Shown here: one piece after another, positions 24-59,304 of the stretch
Position numbering within the stretch: position 1 is the stretch's first letter
How the letters are laid out: every line of letters starts with the position of its first letter
NCBI RefSeq assembly: GCF_011065895.1
Contig: NZ_JAALCR010000010.1
Span: 1 to 64,000 of the forward strand
DNA: 64,000 nucleotides
Origin: Paludisphaera rhizosphaerae
GTDB taxonomy: Bacteria; Planctomycetota; Planctomycetia; Isosphaerales; Isosphaeraceae
Reading direction: 5' to 3'
The notes under the pieces: model-generated
Seen by the model: the letters and a program-made list of their open reading frames with translations, nothing else
The model's database searches: none
What the model was told of the DNA's origin: nothing
Position numbers and translations under genes: made by a program

Positions 24-192
24 CGTCTTCCCCCCTGGAGAGGGAAGACAGACCGCGCAGCGGTCAGATGAGGGGGACGACCGGCGTCGGAAAGACATCG
101 GATCCGACGGCTCCCTCGAACGCGGGGCCGGTCGTCCCCCTCATCCGGCCCTGCGGGCCACCTTCCCCCGCGAGGGGGGAAGGCCGTTGTGG
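24..192. repeat. REP-like repeat pair, type A (24-83) and A' (129-192)
   Basis: Two related elements face each other. The first has a hairpin of CTTCCC and GGGAAG, a second hairpin GACCGC-GCA-GCGGTC, and the tail GATGAGGGGGACGACCG. The second, read on the minus strand, has the same first hairpin and the same tail, but its middle stem is GGCCC-GCA-GGGCC. The head-to-head arrangement resembles REPIN/BIME units. Near copies lie at 31369-31427, 53330-53494 and 59240-59304. Confidence 0.85.
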
Positions 193-224
193 CTCAGACA
201 ATGAGAGTCGGAGGCTGACGGCTT

Positions 225-392
225 CGTCCCCTCTCCCCCCGGGAGAGGGCAGCCGCGCAGCGGCGGGTGAGGGTCGTGGGATTTCGGAGGGCGTGACGGT
301 TGTGCAAGTCGTCGAGCCGGGCTGCGCCTACAGGTCCGACGACCCTCACCCGGCCCTTCGGGCCACCCTCTCCCGGCGGGAGAGGGGACGAG
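225..392. repeat. REP-like repeat pair, type B (225-292) and B' (336-392)
   Basis: These two elements share the architecture of the A family: a C-rich/G-rich stem (CCTCTCCC with GGGAGAGG), a second short stem (GCCGC-GCA-GCGGC in B, GGCCC-TTC-GGGCC type in B'), and the tail GGGTGAGGGTCG. They face each other. Bases 226-292 reappear exactly, as the reverse complement, at 31573-31639. B' reappears with one mismatch, as the reverse complement, at 31286-31339. Confidence 0.85.
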
Positions 393-5003: not shown

Positions 5004-5556
5004 GAGAGGGCGTCGCGACGAGCGGCCTAAGCCGGATTCTGTCGAGGTCGGGGGGACGATTGCCGTCCCAAACGGCCTCGGATGATCATTTCTCTGGGAC
5101 GCCGGTCTCCCGACGCCTCAAGCGACCTACCCGGGAGTCGATGACGGATCGGGCCGACCCGTGCGGGACGAAGGCTGATGAGGCCCGGTTGCCCGGCCCT
5201 CCGTCGCCCACGCTTTTTCCCGCTGCTCCCCTATTTGGTCTTGCTCCCGGTGGGGTTTGCCGAGCCAGACCGGTCGCCCGGCCTGCTGGTGAGCTCTTAC
5301 CTCACCGTTTCACCCTTACCCCGACGTGGAGGCCGAAGCCCCGCCGCCGTGGCGGTTTGCTTTCTGTGGCACTTTCCCTATCCGATGCGCGAACGCAACG
5401 GACGGTGGGCGTTACCCACCACCGCGCCCTTCGGAGTCCGGACTTTCCTCCGCGGCACGTCCCCCAGACCGGTCCGCGCTCGCCGGAGAAATCCCCGACG
5501 CGCCCGAGCCGCCCTGGGGCGCCACGGCGATCATCGCACCCGCCGCGAGCCCTCTT
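5004..5556 (-). ncRNA. rnpB: RNase P RNA (bacterial type A)
   Basis: On the minus strand the core RNase P motifs appear in order: GAGGAAAGTCCGGACTCC, CACAGAAAGCAAACCGCC, GGTAAGGGTGAAACGGTGAG, GAGCAAGACCAAATAGGGG, the GGGTAGG(T)CGCTTGAG block, and near the 3' end GACAGAATCCGGCTTA. The ends were set by a long P1 helix: 5' AGAGGGC...CGCGGCG pairs with 3' CGTCGCGACGCCCTCT at about 5005-5020. This RNA is the catalytic subunit that trims the 5' ends of pre-tRNAs. A promoter-like pair sits just upstream. At about 550 nt it is longer than most type A RNAs, mainly because of P1 and the GC-rich arms. Confidence 0.95.
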
Positions 5557-30216: not shown

Positions 30217-31221
<1,005 letters not shown>

Positions 31222-31285
31222 GGGGAGTGTTCCAGGGCGGAGCGAAGGAAGGAGGCTTCCCCCCTCGACGATCGGCTCGGCCTGA

Positions 31286-31427
31286 GTCCCCTCTCCCGCC
31301 GGGAGAGGGTGGCCCGAAGAGCCGGGTGAGGGTCGTCGGACTGGCGAGCATAGTACTGGAGGCGAGGACGTCTTCACCCTGGAGGGGGAAGACGGACCGC
31401 GAAGCGGTCAGATGAGGGGGACGACCG
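31286..31427 (+). repeat. REP-like repeats, type B' variant (31286-31339) and A (31369-31427)
   Basis: 31286-31339 is the reverse complement of 336-392, with one mismatch over 54 bases. 31369-31427 is a type A copy carrying GACCGC-GAA-GCGGTC and the GATGAGGGGGACGACCG tail, in the same orientation as 24-83. Confidence 0.8.
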
Positions 31428-31431
31428 CCGA

Positions 31432-31510
31432 GGAGTTCTCAGTTGGCAGTTCTCAGCTCTCAGATGTTTGGACTCATGTCCCTCTCTGGCAACTGACAAC
31501 TGACAACTCC
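31432..31510. repeat. Imperfect inverted repeat of CAGTTGTCAG-type units
   Basis: The left arm (31432-31456) reads GGAGTT followed by TCAGTT and CAGTT units. The right arm (31486-31510) is its reverse complement with a few changes and reads as GGAGTTGTCAGTTGTCAGTT on the minus strand. Each arm is itself a short tandem of a 7 bp unit. It is AT-richer than the surroundings and sits inside the REP cluster. Confidence 0.6.
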
Positions 31511-31520
31511 TGAGCGGATA

Positions 31521-31639
31521 CCTTCCTCCTGCAGGGGGGAAGGCCGTTATGGTCCCGGATTTCATCCGACGTGCCCTCCGAAATCCCACGACCCTCACCC
31601 GCCGCTGCGCGGCTGCCCTCTCCCGGGGGGAGAGGGGAC
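31521..31639 (-). repeat. REP-like repeats, partial A' (31521-31552) and exact B copy (31573-31639)
   Basis: 31573-31639 is an exact 67-base reverse-complement match to 226-292. 31521-31552 retains only the stem and the GGAAGGCCGTTATGG end of an A'-type unit. Confidence 0.8.
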
Positions 31640-31734
31640 TACAGAGCATCGCTTGAGACGGGTATGGAACGGGTTGGAGGAGCACGCCGGCCGCCCCTCC
31701 GGGTTGCGGAGGGGCGACCAGAATCGACCGCGGC

Positions 31735-34700
31735 TTAGTGGCCGCGGCGGTGGTGATGGTGGCCGGCGGAGGGGCTCGGCATGACCCGGACCTCGCCGTT
31801 GTTGGCGTCGAAGCACTCGATCTGGAGGTGCTCCGCGGCGACGCCTTCCTTGAAGTTGATCATCACGGACATGCCGGTTTCGGCCTCGATCCGGGCGATC
31901 GCCTTCCGCTTACGGTTGTTGAGGTAGGTCGCGACGGCGGAGCCGACGGTGACCTGGATCTTCCGCACGTCCTCGCGGTGCGAGGCCAGGGCGATGATCC
32001 GCATGACGTCGATTGCCATGCTCTCGGCCGACTTGACGACGCCGGCGCCGTTGCAGTTCGGGCAGTCCTCGTACACCGACCGCTTCAGGCTGGGCCGGAT
32101 CCGCTGGCGGGTCATCTCGATCAGGCCGAAGGCGCTCATGCGGAGCACCTTGGTGCGGGCCCGATCGCGCTTGATGGCCTCGCGGAGAGCCCGTTCGACG
32201 CCCCGACGGTGGCGCTCTTCACGCATGTCGATGAAGTCGTTGACGATGACTCCGCCGAGGTCACGCAGCCGGAGCTGCCGGGCGATCTCCTTGGCGGCCC
32301 GCAGGTTCATCTCGTAGGCCGTGCGCTCGGCGTCGTCCTCGACCCGGAAGTTGCCCGAGTTGACGTCGATGGCGACGAGGGCCTCGGTCTGGTCGATGAC
32401 GATCGAGCCGCCTTCCGGCAGCGGGACGTGCCGGCGCTGGATCTTGGCGATCTCGTCCTCGATCCCGTACTTGTGGAAGAGGGGGATCTTCTCGTCGTAG
32501 AGCTTGACCCGGTTGGCGAACCGAGGCATCACCACGCGGAGGAACTCCTGAGCCCGCTCGAAGGCGGCCGGCTCGTCGATCCAGATGGTGTCGATCTCGG
32601 ACGTGAAGACGTCCCGGATGGTCCGGGTGATCATGTCCGATTCCTGGTAGATCGGGGCCGGGCCCTTGGTCTTCTTGATGCGGCGGAGGATGACCTTCCA
32701 GAGCCGCAGCAGGTAGGCCAGGTCGCGGGCCAGCTCGCGCTTGGACCGCTCCAGGCCGGCGGTCCGGACGATGAAGCCGAGCCCCTTGGGCGGGTTCAGC
32801 TCGTGCATGATCTCGCGGAGCTTGCGGCGCTGGCCCTCGTCGACGATCTTGCGCGAGACGCCGACGCGGTTGAGCCCCGGCATCAGGACGAGGTAACGCC
32901 CGGGGATGCTGATGTAGGTGGAGAGGGTCGGCCCCTTGGTGCCGATGCTCTCCTTGATGCACTGGACGAGGACCTCGTCGCCGCGGCGGAAGACCTCCTG
33001 GATGGGAGGCTTGGACGCGCCTCGGCCGCCTCGGCCCTCGCCGCGATGGGGGCGGGCTTCGACGGGGCCGCGCAGGCCCATCTCGCGCTCCAGAACCTCG
33101 ATCTCCTCGATCTCCTTGCGGATCTCCTGCTCCAGCTCGGGGTCGATCTCCTCCTCGACGGCCGGCGGGGCGTCGTCGTGGTCGTGATCGTGGAGGTCGT
33201 CGGCGTCGCCGATCAGGTCGTCGAAGACGTCGACGTCTTCGCGTTCCAGGCGGCTGCTGGGGCGACGGCGGGCGGGCTCGCGGAACGAGACCTCTTCTTC
33301 TTCGTCGGCGACGTCGGCCGACTCGTCGGCCGTGGACGGCGTTTCGAGGCTCTCCGGACGCTCGCGATCGCGGCGACGGCCGCGGCGGCGGCGACGGCGG
33401 GTGCGGCCCTCGGAACGGCCCGTCCCAGACTCGGTTTCGCCTTCGCCCTCGGCCTCGGCCTCGGCCTCAACCTCTTCCTCGACTCCCGCGCCGAAGCCGC
33501 GGACGTCGTCTTCGGGGGGCTCGTAGCCGCGGGGGGCGGGCTGGTCGCCGAAGTCGTAGTCGGACGTCTTCAGGCGTTCGCGGCGGGGGACGTAGCCGGG
33601 CTCGCCGGCGCGGTCGTGGGCTCGCTGCCGGCTCGGCCGCTCGGGCCGTTCGCGGTCGCGCTCGCGTTCGACCTCGGGTTCGGCGGGCGAGCGGTAAGGG
33701 GATTCGATCTCGGCGGCTGGCCGGGTCCGCCGCGAGGGGGGAGCCGGAGGCTCAGCGGCCGGCGGCGGGGTGGTCGGGACGACCTCGCGGGGACGCAGGT
33801 CGGGACGGTCGCCGCCCCGGGAACGGATCGCCGCCCGGCCGCCTCGGCGTCGCGGCGGGGCCTCGGAGCCGAAGTCGGAAGGTTCTTCGTCCGAGACGGG
33901 CGAGGGGGCCTCGAACTCGACGGGTTCGAGCGTCTCCTCTTCGGGGACCGGCGGACGCGAGGCCCGGCCGCGGCCGTTGCCTCGGCGAGGCCGTTCGCGA
34001 CGGGAGGGCGACGGAGCCGGCTCGAACGAGTCCTCGCGCTCCGGCTCGCGCTCGGGCAGGGGCTCGCGCTCGACCTCGCGCGCCGGGCCGCGGCCGCGGG
34101 CGACGGCCGGTTCGTGGTCGCCGAACAGGGAGCGGGGACGGCCGCGGTCGTCGCGCTCGAAGCCGAGTCCCAGGTCGGGCTCGGGCTCGGCCGGCGGCGT
34201 CGGCGACTGCCGACGGGCGGTGCGGTTCGGGGGAAGGTCGGCCTCGGCCGGCTCGGGCTCGTCGCGGCGAGAGGTTCGTCCCCACCGCGATTCGAGCGGA
34301 TCGCTCTCAACGTCGCGGTCGTATTCGGTCGACTTGGACCAGGAGGTCGGGCCCGCCTCGCGGCCTCGTCCGCGGTCCTCGTCCTCGAAGGCGGGCTCGC
34401 GATGGGCTTCGGGGGGCGGCGGCGGGGTGAAGTCGTCGTCGTGGCCCTCGACGAGTCCCTCGCCGAAGTTGCGCGGCGACTCCGAACGGTCGCGGCGTCC
34501 CTTCACGGACAGATCGGGCCGTTCGCGATCACGATCGCGGTCCCGATCACGGCGGCGGGGCTCGCGGTCGCGATCACGCGAGGGTTCGCGGGAGCGGGGC
34601 GGGGCGGGGGGCTCGAAGTCGTCCCCTTCGTCGTCGGCGGAGGCGCCGTGGCGGTCGTAGTACTGGGCCTCGACGTCGGAGACGTGGAGAAAGCCGTTGC

Positions 34701-50476: not shown

Positions 50477-53377
50477 ATGTGGACCCAGAATTACGACCCC
50501 GTCGGCTGGTGGCCGGCCTCGACGTTTTTCGCGGCCTTGCCGATTTTGACGCTGATGGGGCTGTTGCTCTCGAACCGGATCGCGGCGTGGAAGGCCGCGG
50601 CGGCGGCGCTGGCGGCGGCCATGTTGACGGCGACCATGCGGTTCGGGATGCCCTGGCACATGGCGCTCTCGGCGGCCGGGATGGGGGTGGTCTTCGCCCT
50701 GATCCGGGTCGTCTACCTCATCGTCGCGGCGATGTTCCTTTACGACATCGCGGTCAAGACCGGTCGGTTCGAGGTGATGAAGGCGTCGATCGCCCGGCTC
50801 TCGCCCGATCGCCGGGTGCAGGCGGTGCTGGTGGCCTTCTCATTCGGCGGGTTCCTGGAGGGCTGCGCCGGGTTCGGCGCGCCGGTGGCGATCTGCTCCG
50901 CGTTCCTGGTCGGCCTGGGGTTCCACCCGCTTCAGGCGGCGATTCTTGGTCTGGTCGCCGACACGGTCTGTGTGTGCTGGGGGAGCGTCGGCATTCCTCT
51001 GGTGACCCTGGGGGCGATCTCAGGGATGGACGTGCAAGCGCTCAACGTCACAACGGCCGCGATCCTGGTCCCCGCCGCTTTGACGATCCCGTTCTGGCTG
51101 GCGGCGATCGTCGCCGGGCCTCGCGGAGCGCTCGGGGTCTGGCCGACCTTGTTGACGGTCGGCGGCACGTATGCGGCGGTGCAGTTCTTCTGGGCGCGCT
51201 TCGTCAACGTGGAGTTGGTTTCGATCGCCGCGGCGATCGCCAGCCTGGCGGCGGGCGCCGTGGCCCTTCGGCTCTGGAAGCCCGCGAATCACTGGCGATT
51301 CGACGGGGAGGACGCCGCCGACGCCGCCGTTTCGGAGACGTATTCCGCCCGCGAGATCGTCCGAGCGTGGCTGCCGTTCGCGGTCTTGACGGCGATCGTC
51401 ATGATCTGGGTCGCGCCGGCGGTGAAGCCTCGGCTGGAGACGCTGGGTACGTTCAAGTTCGAGGTCGCGCCCCTGCATTTGAAGGTCGCGCGCGGGGCGG
51501 CGGTGACGGGGCACGAGACGCCGACTCCGACCGACCTGGAGAAGGCGGTGGCCGAAGTGCCGCTGCTGTCGACGGTCGGGACGGCGGTGCTGCTGTCGGC
51601 GATCCTCGGCGGCTTGCTGGCCGGCGTGGGGCCGGTCGAGCAGGGGCGTGTTTTCGCCGGGACCGTGAAGCGGATGGCGAAACCGGCGGCGGCGATCCTC
51701 TGCATGCTGGCCCTGGGATACGTGACCCGATATTCGGGGATGGACGCCGTGCTCGGCCTGGCGTTCACCCGGACGGGCACGGCGCTTTACCCAGCGTTCG
51801 GCACCTGGCTGGGTTGGCTGGGGACGGCGCTGACGGGGTCGATCACGTCGAGCAACGTCCTGTTCGGCAACCTCCAGAAGATCACGGCCACGCACCTGGG
51901 GATCTCGCCGATTCTGATGGGGGCGGCGAACACCGCGGGCGGGGCGATGGGGAAGATGATCGCCGCCGCGTCGATCGTCGTGGCCGCCGCGGCGACTGGC
52001 GAGACGGGCCATGAGGGGAAGGTGCTGCGAGGCTCGCTGCCGCACAGCCTGGCGATGGGCCTGTTCACGGCGATCCTCGTCTGGGCCGTCGCCTGGTTCG
52101 CGCCTCTGGCCGCGATCGAGCCCGAGAAGAAGGGGGGCTCAGGATCGGAAAACGTCGTCCCCCGCTGGCGCTGGCGATCGGTCGACGCGGAAGTACCCCA
52201 GGTCGATCCGGGGCGGCCGACCCAGGACCACGTCGGCGACGAGTTCCGCGGTGGCCGGCGAGAGCTGCAGCCCCGCCCGGCGATGACCCGTGGCGACCAC
52301 CAGGTTTCGGAACCCCGGCGCGAGGCCGATGTACGGTCGGGAGTCCAGGCTGCCGGGCCGGAGCCCCGCCCAGGTGGCCTCGATCCGGGCGTCGGCCAGC
52401 GCCGGGCAGAGCGAGGCGGCCACGTCCAGAAGGCTTTGGAACGCATCGGCCGTGGGGAGCACGTCGAAACCGGCCTCTTCCTCGGTCGCCCCGATCAGGA
52501 CTCGGCCCTCGTCGCGCGGGACGAGGTAACGCTTGCCGTGCTCGACGATCCGTCGCAGCACGGGTCGGCCGCAGTCGACCAGCACGATCTGGCCTTTCAC
52601 CGGGGGCGTCGGCGCGGAGACGCCCACGCCTTCCAGCAGGTCGCCCGACCACGCGCCGGCGGCGACCACGACCGTCTCGGCGTGAACTTCGCCATCGGCG
52701 GTGCGGACGCCCGTCACGCGGTCGCCCTGGGTGGCGAAGCCCTCGACCCCACGGTGCGACAGGACGATCCCGCCGCGAAGGCGAAAGGCTTCCGCCAGCG
52801 CCCGCAGGTGCCACGGGTTGCGGATCTGGGCGCGGTCGGGGAGGAAGTACGCAGCGCGGAGGTCGGTCGTCAGGGCCGGCTCGACGCGGGCGATGTCGGC
52901 CGGGGCGAGCCGTTCGTAGGCGATCCCCTCGACGCGCCAGCGGCCGGCGGTGGTCCGCAGGTCGCGCTCGTCGGTCTCGGTCATGGCGACGTCGACGCCG
53001 CCGGAACGGCGATAGCCGTTGTCGATCCCAGTCTCCTCGCGGAGGACGGCCGACCACTCGGGATAAAGTCGGGCGCTCCAGGCCCTGAGGGCGAGCGTGG
53101 GATGCGAGGGCGTCCGGTCCGGGTCGCTCTGGGCGGGGAGCATCCCCGCGCCGGCCCACGAGGCCTCGCGACCGGGCTGGCGGCGGTCCAGCACGGCGAC
53201 GGAGAGTCCTTCGCGCGTCAGGGCGAAGGCGATGGAGAGCCCAACGATCCCGCCCCCCGCGACGACCACGTCGAAACGATCGGCCATATCCCCGGACGCC
53301 TTTCTCCTCAGCGGTCTTTCTTCGAGATTCGTCTTCCCCCCTGGAGGGGGAAGACAGACCGCGGAGCGGTCAGATGA
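50477..53377 (+). CDS. lctP: L-lactate permease (LctP family) with a non-stop antisense extension
   Basis: The conserved protein covers 50477 to about 52120 (roughly 548 residues, a normal LctP length). It has about 13 membrane segments and the motifs FGGFLEGCAGFGAPVAICSAFL, ITSSNVLFGNLQKITATHLG and ANTAGGAMGKMIAAASIVVAAAAT. It imports lactate or glycolate with a proton. After the last membrane helix (ILVWAVAWFAPLA) the frame has no stop until 53377, running antisense through thiO for about 1.2 kb, and the stop lies inside a REP-like repeat. Either the extension is real or a stop was lost; a G6 run at 52133-52138 is a candidate indel site. Confidence 0.75.
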   Translation: MWTQNYDPVGWWPASTFFAALPILTLMGLLLSNRIAAWKAAAAALAAAMLTATMRFGMPWHMALSAAGMGVVFALIRVVYLIVAAMFLYDIAVKTGRFEVMKASIARLSPDRRVQAVLVAFSFGGFLEGCAGFGAPVAICSAFLVGLGFHPLQAAILGLVADTVCVCWGSVGIPLVTLGAISGMDVQALNVTTAAILVPAALTIPFWLAAIVAGPRGALGVWPTLLTVGGTYAAVQFFWARFVNVELVSIAAAIASLAAGAVALRLWKPANHWRFDGEDAADAAVSETYSAREIVRAWLPFAVLTAIVMIWVAPAVKPRLETLGTFKFEVAPLHLKVARGAAVTGHETPTPTDLEKAVAEVPLLSTVGTAVLLSAILGGLLAGVGPVEQGRVFAGTVKRMAKPAAAILCMLALGYVTRYSGMDAVLGLAFTRTGTALYPAFGTWLGWLGTALTGSITSSNVLFGNLQKITATHLGISPILMGAANTAGGAMGKMIAAASIVVAAAATGETGHEGKVLRGSLPHSLAMGLFTAILVWAVAWFAPLAAIEPEKKGGSGSENVVPRWRWRSVDAEVPQVDPGRPTQDHVGDEFRGGRRELQPRPAMTRGDHQVSEPRREADVRSGVQAAGPEPRPGGLDPGVGQRRAERGGHVQKALERIGRGEHVETGLFLGRPDQDSALVARDEVTLAVLDDPSQHGSAAVDQHDLAFHRGRRRGDAHAFQQVARPRAGGDHDRLGVNFAIGGADARHAVALGGEALDPTVRQDDPAAKAKGFRQRPQVPRVADLGAVGEEVRSAEVGRQGRLDAGDVGRGEPFVGDPLDAPAAGGGPQVALVGLGHGDVDAAGTAIAVVDPSLLAEDGRPLGIKSGAPGPEGERGMRGRPVRVALGGEHPRAGPRGLATGLAAVQHGDGESFARQGEGDGEPNDPAPRDDHVETIGHIPGRLSPQRSFFEIRLPPWRGKTDRGAVR
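52139..53287 (-). CDS. thiO: Glycine oxidase ThiO (FAD-dependent amino-acid oxidase)
   Basis: 382 residues of the DAO fold. The FAD motif FDVVVAGGGIVGLSIAFALTREGLSVAVLDR is at the N terminus, then PGREASWAGAGML, ETVVVAAGAWSGDLL, PPVKGQIVLVD, YLVPRDEGRVLIGATEEEAGFD, and the C-terminal RPYIGLAPGFRNLVVATGHRRAGLQLSPATAELVADVVLG. ThiO oxidises glycine to dehydroglycine for the thiazole of thiamine, but no other thi genes are here. The Met at 53287 precedes the FAD motif; the frame upstream is repeat DNA. It overlaps the opposite lctP frame over its full length and shares the minus strand with the gene 20 bp upstream. Confidence 0.88.
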   Translation of the reverse strand: MADRFDVVVAGGGIVGLSIAFALTREGLSVAVLDRRQPGREASWAGAGMLPAQSDPDRTPSHPTLALRAWSARLYPEWSAVLREETGIDNGYRRSGGVDVAMTETDERDLRTTAGRWRVEGIAYERLAPADIARVEPALTTDLRAAYFLPDRAQIRNPWHLRALAEAFRLRGGIVLSHRGVEGFATQGDRVTGVRTADGEVHAETVVVAAGAWSGDLLEGVGVSAPTPPVKGQIVLVDCGRPVLRRIVEHGKRYLVPRDEGRVLIGATEEEAGFDVLPTADAFQSLLDVAASLCPALADARIEATWAGLRPGSLDSRPYIGLAPGFRNLVVATGHRRAGLQLSPATAELVADVVLGRPPRIDLGYFRVDRSPAPAGDDVFRS

Positions 53378-54369
53378 GGGGGACGACCGCCGTCGCATGC
53401 GCGTTCGAGCCTTGCCGTGAACGCGGAGCCGATCGCCCCCTCATCCGGCCCTTCGGGCCACCTTCCCCCTCCAGGGGGGAAGGCCGTTATGGTCGGCCCT
53501 CCGAATCCGTGACGATCGGCCTTCTTCAACGATCGCGGCGGGTGCGATTTCCAGGCCGAGGCCGAGAGGCGGTCGAGGCCGCCGTGCTCGCTGGCGAGGA
53601 TCAGGTCGTCGCCGTCCCAGGCGATCCCCTCGACCTGGCGGTCTCCCTTCAGCCGCACCTCGGCCGACATCCGCAGGCCGTCCCACGATGGCGGCGCGGG
53701 GCGGTCGTACACGCGGACGACGTCGACCCCGCAAACGGCCAGCCGACGGCCGTCGGGCGAGAGGTCCGCGCCGGTGGCCGGGTCGATGAAACCGGGGAGC
53801 ACGCCGATCTTCCGGGCGGTCGTCGGCCGCAGGAGCGGGGCGGGGGGCTCCAGCGGAACCTCGCGCAGCTCGGCCTCCTTGCCGTCGAATCGCTTGGTCA
53901 CCAGCACGGCGCGATCGCCCTCGACGACGAGGCTCTCGGCGTCGAAGCAGTCGTTGGTCGGCCGGGCGTAGAACGTGGCGGCGGTGGGTTTCAGCGGGCC
54001 GACCGCCGGTCGATCGGGGTCGGGTTCATCGAACCGATAGATGGCGCGGAGTCGAAGGAGGCCCTTGTTGTCGCCGATGTCGCCGATGTACAGCCGCCCG
54101 CGGTCGTCGATTGCCGCATCCTCCCAGTCGAGGTTCGGCGCGGCGAGGTCGAACGAGCGGATCGTGCGGGCGTCGCGGCCGACGGCGATGAGGGCCGGCG
54201 GATTGCCCGAGTCGTTATGGACCCAGAAGACGTCCGGTCGACGACGGCCTCGAACGATCCCCGAGGCCTCCGGCGCGACGCGGGCGTCGAACTCGCCGAG
54301 CGGCTCGGGACGGACGCGGGGCTCGTCTGCAACCAGCAGGATCAGGAAGGCGAGCAGCGGGACCATCAT
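53308..54369 (-). CDS. Propeller-like secreted protein with a repeat-derived C terminus
   Basis: 353 residues. A short hydrophobic N terminus (VPLLAFLILLVADE) suggests export. The body looks like a beta-propeller of the SMP-30/NHL kind: DVFWVHNDSGNPPALIAVGRDARTIRSFDL, WEDAAIDDRGRLYIGDIGDN, LSPDGRRLAVCGVDVVRVYD, VEGIAWDGDDLILASEHGGLDRL. No catalytic residues are evident. From about residue 293 onward (after LKKADRHGF) the sequence is read through the REP-like repeats at 53330-53494, so the last 60 residues are repeat-encoded and the stop lies beyond them. Confidence 0.75.
   Translation of the reverse strand: MMVPLLAFLILLVADEPRVRPEPLGEFDARVAPEASGIVRGRRRPDVFWVHNDSGNPPALIAVGRDARTIRSFDLAAPNLDWEDAAIDDRGRLYIGDIGDNKGLLRLRAIYRFDEPDPDRPAVGPLKPTAATFYARPTNDCFDAESLVVEGDRAVLVTKRFDGKEAELREVPLEPPAPLLRPTTARKIGVLPGFIDPATGADLSPDGRRLAVCGVDVVRVYDRPAPPSWDGLRMSAEVRLKGDRQVEGIAWDGDDLILASEHGGLDRLSASAWKSHPPRSLKKADRHGFGGPTITAFPPGGGRWPEGPDEGAIGSAFTARLERACDGGRPPHLTAPRSVFPLQGGRRISKKDR
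53330..53494. repeat. REP-like repeat pair, type A (53330-53389) and A' (53431-53494)
   Basis: Same head-to-head arrangement and spacing as 24-192. The pair lies inside the 3' end of the propeller-like gene and supplies the stop codon of the lctP frame. Confidence 0.85.
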
Positions 54370-59136: not shown

Positions 59137-59304
59137 GCGACGACCCTCATCCGCCCCTTCGGGGCACCTATTCCCGGGGGGAGAAGGGACGAGGCGCGAG
59201 GCGCCTTGATCGAGGTTGGGGGAGTGACGCGTTCAATGCCGGTCGCCCCCACATCCGGCCGTGCGGGCCACCTTCCCCCGCGAGAGGGGAAGGCCGTTAT
59301 GGTT
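59137..59304. repeat. REP-like repeats, type B' (59137-59192) and A' (59240-59304)
   Basis: Both face the same way, unlike the head-to-head pairs elsewhere. A' ends in GGAAGGCCGTTATGGTT 11 bp before the stop codon of the cytochrome-type gene. Confidence 0.8.

Follow-up and report, generated by a model that had tools for sequence, protein, structure and literature searches.

Paired intergenic repeats of Paludisphaera rhizosphaerae with a candidate triplex fold bridged by a hairpin

Among known systems, the closest to the repeats described here is TMECO, the triplex motif of E. coli (Holder et al. 2015, PMC4666352). As described in the sections of that paper drawn on here, TMECO forms a triplex in vitro by CD and NMR, gives no triplex signal in double-stranded form or by in vivo DMS, is linked to instability and is reported in 262 proteobacterial genomes. 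The main text of the paper does not contain the string 'planctomyc'. The ITxF search described there allowed loops of 1-6 nt, and that of Hoyne et al., as cited in the same paper, loops of 0-10 nt. Other described systems resemble the present repeats in organisation. REPINs, which are associated with RAYTs, are inverted doublets, extragenic and non-autonomous (Bertels and Rainey 2011, PMC3116915). REPs that lack a dedicated transposase are also described, and protection from SbcCD has been put forward as a reason for their heterodimers (Di Nocera et al. 2013, PMC3733652). The RIMEs and A/B/C palindromes of rhizobia are intergenic repeated palindromes (PMC2573895).

The window, by which we mean the whole stretch of 64,000 nt that was analysed, is the start of contig C10 in the genome of Paludisphaera rhizosphaerae (8.05 Mb, 110 contigs). 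Its repeat units have the strand order of TMECO and PIT, 5'-CCCTCNCCC / GGGNGAGGG / GGGNGAGGG. Like TMECO they are intergenic, patchy between close relatives and found in inverted pairs, as some TMECO copies are in E. coli (PMC4666352). They differ from TMECO in loop 2, where TMECO has 3 nt and the present units have a hairpin of roughly 11-21 nt; units with such long hairpin loops therefore fell outside the 1-6 nt range of ITxF. Unlike the REPINs of PMC3116915, they have no linked RAYT that we could find, each unit has two hairpins and a tail, and unequal halves are the rule. The CGTC REPs of PMC3733652 share the lack of a dedicated transposase and the common heterodimers, and they differ in having a single 8-9 bp stem and a CCA tail. 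Membership in the CGTC REPs was considered and dropped: the CGTC edge is present in just 28/64 AL and 34/84 B/D units, so the tag is not conserved here, and no CCA tail was found on the units. The rhizobial palindromes are likened to our repeats by their description; matches to the units are present on Rhizobium and Sinorhizobium plasmids. Our literature search, mainly outside subscription papers, found no report of a triplex motif with a hairpin as loop 2. We class the elements not with the RAYT REPINs but with the triplex motif, as a variant bridged by a hairpin and organised like REPINs. Our data indicate that the unit is probably a purine-motif intrastrand DNA triplex with a hairpin as its second loop, and that paired units spread as a non-autonomous element.

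Units, elements and their distribution

The four repeat loci listed in the first-pass annotation (24-392, 31286-31639, 53330-53494 and 59137-59304) all carry units as described, both by sequence and by nhmmer (Table 1). With the general unit pattern, the window yields 7 units vs 0 in 20 Markov-1 simulated windows. The 67-nt unit at 226-292 is repeated at 31573-31639 on the opposite strand with 0 differences, as had been stated. Stem 2 had also been named as the only difference between the two versions of a family. This was incorrect: AL and AR are distinguished by a single arm pair and a single tail base as well (T-A·A vs C-G·G). Head-to-head pairs were described, and inverted doublets are indeed common, but the two units at 59137-59304 are on the same strand and score low. 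The locus at 31286-31639 does contain units, but it is really a B element with an A element in its spacer. The nested A element itself holds a third repeat, and a similar sequence is present at the A copies L009 and L030.

Table 1. Repeat features of the window (positions in the window) and copies of a MITE on five contigs (contig:positions)
Feature	Positions	Strand	Basis and details
AL, left unit of A element: hairpin 1, hairpin 2 (GACCGC/GCGGTC), putative third-strand tail	25-83	+	nhmmer 64.9 bits
AR, right unit of A element: hairpin 2 GGCCC/GGGCC	130-183	-	nhmmer 55.1 bits
BL, left unit of B element	226-276	+	nhmmer 56.5 bits; 9/9 allowed triads
5' arm of this BL, CCCTCTCCC	229-237		
3' arm of this BL, GGGAGAGGG	241-249		
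Hairpin 2 of this BL	252-264		
Predicted third strand of this BL, GGGTGAGGG	265-273		
BR, right unit of B element	340-389	-	nhmmer 57.1 bits
BR, outer half of composite B[A]B element	31286-31335	+	nhmmer
AL of A element nested in B spacer	31370-31427	+	nhmmer
Third repeat (GAGTTCTCAGTT...GACAACTGACAACTC) in spacer of nested A element	31430-31514		by eye, approximate boundaries
AR remnant of nested A element (family D2)	31515-31553	-	sequence
BL, other outer half of composite	31589-31639	-	nhmmer
AL of intact A element	53331-53389	+	nhmmer
AR of the same intact A element	53430-53483	-	nhmmer
BR, weak, probably decayed	59141-59190	-	nhmmer 32.4 bits
AR, no AL partner reported nearby	59240-59293	-	nhmmer 43.0 bits
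MITE copies	C10:111892-112113, C18:108151-108372, C42:7886-8107, C53:17773-17995, C21:69433-69654		

Each element consists of two unequal halves (AL/AR or BL/BR) in inverted orientation, with the tails inward, and is about 165 bp long. BL/BR heterodimers account for 33/35 uninterrupted B elements, and the spacers are 62-66 nt in 29/35 of them. Inward-facing neighbours less than 90 nt apart are AL/AR in 84 cases vs AR/AR in 11, the latter being mostly D pairs with a match to the AR profile. An A element is inserted in the spacer of 12 B elements. The third family, D, is also paired, and several of its copies lie inside a MITE with terminal inverted repeats (TIR). Another palindromic repeat (GGGTGCCATGGCCACGC...GCGTGGCCATGGCACCC) was seen within A spacers at C43:14360, C59:16330, C6:276058 and C18:108564. 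A search of the elements against Rfam at gathering scores gave no match. Only RNase P was found, a bacterial class A RNA at 5015-5506 on the minus strand of the window (216 bits).

The copy number in the genome is high, with 224 A-type and 159 B/D-type units and 0 control matches. The exact A tail is found at 93 places among the matches listed. Tail A with at most 2 mismatches occurs at 179 places vs 5 for the reversed-pattern control, and tail B with at most 1 mismatch at 167 places vs 21. In the own-genome unit set, 638 kb of stretches taken around matches and searched with nhmmer, there were 99 AL, 120 AR (some of them D-type), 57 BL and 64 BR units; weak units are under-counted in this set because the profiles came from regular-expression hits. 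Many contigs begin or end within or beside elements (C1, C6, C10, C22, C40, C42, C47, C48, C53, C56, C57, C58, C63 and others). The assembly seems to break there, so the copy number is probably underestimated.

The long tail ...GACGACCG occurs at 143 places in this genome vs no more than 19 in each of 44 other family members and marks a subfamily concentrated in P. rhizosphaerae. Four of five congeners contain the A-type core (56 places in G029, 150 in G030, 80 in G031 and 317 in G032, with 0 in G028). A view of the A family as nearly confined to its own genome was wrong for the core unit. A full-length A-like match is present in Planctomyces sp. SH-PL62 at 73.8% identity. The long-loop B/D pattern occurs in 24/392 genomes of the same phylum, P. 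rhizosphaerae included; 52 units are found in G413 and 13 or fewer in each of the others. The records with cross-phylum matches include Alpha-, Gamma- and Deltaproteobacteria, Acidobacteria, Chloroflexi, Thermomicrobiales, Armatimonadetes, Saganbacteria and Phycisphaerae. A second hairpin is not clear in some of these matches, L181 and L205 among them, which may be due to chance. Across 36 genomes from other lineages, each picked because of having a match, copies number from 4 to 238, with 0 control matches; the genome with 238 is that of Caulobacter endophyticus (L233).

Arm-tail covariation and the second hairpin

B units carry GGGAGAGGG as the purine arm of hairpin 1 and GGGTGAGGG as the tail, and in other units the two sequences are GGGAGAAGG and GGATGAGGG, respectively. 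Apart from a single A to T change, the tail mirrors the purine arm, and hairpin 2 lies between the two. Read from the sequence, such a mirror tail is arranged like the third strand of a purine-motif triplex (G·G-C, A·A-T, T·A-T). A pyrimidine arm, a purine arm and a candidate purine third strand giving R·R-Y triads are all present, and 9/9 triads are allowed in the B units tested and 8/9 in A units, where one triad is mismatched. The mirror relation would not be required by Watson-Crick pairing or by protein binding to direct or inverted repeats. The first-pass annotation had noted a conserved, single-stranded tail. The tail is real but is better interpreted as a third strand in a putative triplex, and the link between tail and hairpin 1 by the triplex rule is absent from that annotation.

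Arm and tail switch together, as C-G·G or T-A·A, in 243/248 parsed units of P. rhizosphaerae. The 134 A-type triads comprise 66 T-A·A, 65 C-G·G and 3 others, and the 114 B/D-type triads comprise 82 C-G·G, 30 T-A·A and 2 others; no C-G·A or T-A·G unit is found among the 248. In A-type units of this genome a second triad position obeys the same rule. For the cross-phylum sample, genome contigs were scanned with a pattern in which the arm base and the matching tail base were left free. Most arm and tail letters were fixed in this pattern, and thus only one triad position was tested. Arm and tail agree in 96/98 of the matches listed (A/A 66, G/G 30; the listed matches come from 120 stretches, of which 80 loci are given). 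The two exceptions among them, one G/T (L181) and one G/A (L232), have no 4-bp stem in hairpin 2. All three triad bases agree in 91/98 of these matches. The mutual information of the arm base with the tail is 0.835 of 0.911 bits in the 98 matches listed, vs 0.688 with its Watson-Crick partner. Two free positions beside hairpin 2 share 0.246 and 0.18 bits with the arm base, above shuffles, as expected if the units also carry subfamily history; the rest are near shuffles.

The rule is also kept in other genomes of the phylum, in 52/56 units (exceptions G/C 3, A/T 1), after 9 of 65 matches were dropped because of an inner short-loop motif. It is obeyed by 43/44 units of G469 and by 41/44 units of G460, where the other 3 are mixed. 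At least two units with a G arm and an A tail were seen by eye, and not counted, in G467 (C365, C420). Descent and transfer link the units to one another, so that the unit counts are not independent.

Loop 2 is a self-complementary stretch. A hairpin-2 stem of at least 4 bp is found in 75/98 gaps vs 437/1960 shuffles among the cross-phylum matches listed. In P. rhizosphaerae the Watson-Crick cells of hairpin 2 number 123/126 in AL vs a shuffled mean of 103.1 (maximum 112) and 149/160 in B/D vs 120.4 (maximum 134). These excesses identify hairpin 2 as a second covarying hairpin that replaces the short loop of TMECO. Compensatory pair types were seen in the AL and B/D hairpins, which bears out the expectation of preserved hairpins for these units but not for AR, where 47/50 Watson-Crick cells vs 43.9 (maximum 47) are not above shuffles. 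It counts against the triplex that a plain Watson-Crick fold of the whole element already gives a stable cloverleaf (z -8.7 and -7.4), in which the tails pair with each other rather than with hairpin 1. Agreement of the hairpin-1 loops between the two halves is seen in 36/47 cases for A elements vs 19.9 in shuffles, and in 7/22 for B elements vs 8.7. The agreement in A suggests that pairing or copying between halves may homogenise the loops.

The match of arm and tail could instead be an inherited accident, in which two ancient lineages, an A class and a G class, spread by transfer and the triplex was never selected. Only two classes are common, the units are clearly related across taxa, and the B query has matches in three plasmid records at 95-99% identity (those seen are from Azospirillum, over about 50 nt). 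However, hairpin 2 has been combined with both classes within one genome. An identical hairpin-2 stretch is found 8 times with each class in G460, and hairpin 2 with GACCCC is found with both arm/tail classes in P. rhizosphaerae. The conformity of the second triad position in A-type units also argues against an accident. Furthermore, arm length tracks tail length while the hairpin 2 between them has turned over; arm extension accompanies tail extension (21:1 vs 39:37, Fisher p 1e-4, related sequences, among the matches listed). We regard the accident as unlikely and prefer the hairpin-bridged triplex. In the preferred model, on the strand with the G-rich tail, the pyrimidine arm and the purine arm would pair as hairpin 1, hairpin 2 would make the turn, and the tail would fold back antiparallel to the purine arm as the third strand. 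From the covariation we infer that the triplex forms, in cells too, and that it is under selection.

Genomic placement and the movement of the elements

The elements prefer intergenic DNA, as the first-pass annotation had led one to expect. Only 13/147 element clusters lie mostly in called genes vs about 119 under random placement in the same stretches, with genes called by a home-made Markov caller that missed some genes. Placement at gene 3' ends is seen as no more than a slight excess between convergent genes. The 110 clusters with both neighbours called lie between 22 convergent, 12 divergent and 76 co-directional pairs (24 clusters at fragment edges and 13 inside called ORFs were set aside), and the 245 gene pairs without an element comprise 38, 47 and 160, respectively. 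Such placement would also suit units that act mainly as RNA hairpins at gene ends, for transcript ends or mRNA stability, and were amplified by recombination. This is improbable, because the convergent excess is small, no terminator-like site was found in 31150-31760 of the window, the mirror relation between tail and arm would not be needed, and the element at 53330 sits in a gap that is short in relatives. That A element is absent from 5/5 congeners, in which the flanking genes are 12-80 nt apart. The gap of the composite element (31225-31732 in the window) holds no unit in G028 by eye. In G031 (L300) and G032 (L303) it holds a bare hairpin-1-like hairpin without hairpin 2 or a full tail, and in G029 and G030 other unit arrays, seen by eye.

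Conservation drops at the outer edge of hairpin 1, to at most 0.7 bits per base outside AL, BL and BR; AR has about nine more partly conserved bases outside hairpin 1. Flank repeats are not above chance in A pairs (5/64 vs 4.97 shuffled) or in B pairs (2/22 vs 2.3 shuffled). The AL edges are NGTC in 59/64 and NATC in 5/64, B/D edges are NGTC, NGTT or NGCC variants, and the AR edge is GGCC. The GTAG tag of RAYT-linked REPs is not present at the hairpin edge of the units. The elements deserve the REP/REPIN-like label given to them at first for their form, that is, for the high copy number, the inverted doublets, the intergenic position, the element-free site in relatives and the lack of target duplication.

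The proposal that RAYT transposases mobilise the elements fared differently. Movement in trans by a RAYT that recognises the unit hairpins, either the present one or one now lost, would make the elements classical REPINs, in keeping with their form and with the single RAYT gene of the genome. This gene is the only Y1 transposase match (80.5 bits vs the NCBIfam cut-off of 80). In C45:1-20000 around it no unit pattern is present; the contig begins about 2 kb upstream of the RAYT. Directly upstream of the RAYT are five tandem copies of a different repeat with the core GAAATTCGGTGTCAGTTC (C45:1753-1932 / L031:1245-1460). This core is found at 29 places in the genome with at most 1 mismatch, mostly in clusters on C3, C6, C23 and C45. 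The expected Y1 or RAYT gene flanked by the elements was also not found: no unit pattern occurs at 24 distinct Y1 loci of this genome family (26 stretches, two of them repeats), for which part of the Y1 matches were checked with a strict pattern, mostly in flanks of 1.5 kb. Y1 matches and A-type places number 1 and 224 in P. rhizosphaerae, 5 and 0 in G028, 1 and 56 in G029, 2 and 150 in G030, 0 and 80 in G031, and 5 and 317 in G032. The two numbers do not go together in these six congeneric genomes, and dependence on RAYT is therefore not supported. With the absence of a GTAG tag and the separate repeat of the RAYT, this leaves movement by RAYT with a low probability.

An autonomous parent of the elements was sought among inward-facing unit pairs 400-5000 nt apart, of which the stretches taken contain only two (C12:152446-153356 and C9:286087-287546); no transposase was recognised by eye in them or their ORFs. 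The MITE that contains D copies is about 222 bp long, has the TIR CAATACTGTTCGGCACG and is inserted in hairpin 2 of AR and BR units. Its target repeat (GCCCGAAGGG, with changes in some copies) measures about 10 bp, and a D-type pair of predicted triplex units lies inside it. Its termini number 31 in the genome at no more than 2 mismatches vs 1 in the control, and no longer, autonomous copy was noticed among the matches listed. That the elements are themselves DDE-type MITEs with terminal inverted repeats is very unlikely: their halves are inverted and such a MITE with a target repeat and a D pair does exist in the genome, but flank duplication at A and B elements does not exceed that in shuffles, and their conservation is lost at hairpin 1. 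In the preferred reading, two unequal inverted units would make up one short non-autonomous element that enters intergenic DNA without target duplication. The element would be copied by some enzyme via a single-stranded form. The unequal halves may limit the formation of a long perfect hairpin or cruciform cleaved by SbcCD, as argued for REP heterodimers in PMC3733652.

Significance for repeats and triplex motifs

Non-B DNA is often argued for from sequence potential alone. Here, a base of the third strand changes in step with the Watson-Crick pair it would contact, and this arm-tail covariation across distant bacteria constitutes evolutionary evidence for a DNA triplex. The repeats join REP-type repeats to triplex motifs, with a loop size beyond the two earlier searches described in PMC4666352. 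A wider reading, which we hold to be possible but rather doubtful, is that selection maintains the hairpin-bridged triplex as the structure by which a class of non-autonomous, RAYT-independent elements in many phyla is recognised. The REP-like palindromes of rhizobia, of xanthomonads and of the present lineage would then form one superfamily with the E. coli motif, and the mover would be an unrecognised enzyme or a replication process. The finding sharpens the question raised in 2013 (PMC3733652) of what moves REPs that have no dedicated transposase.
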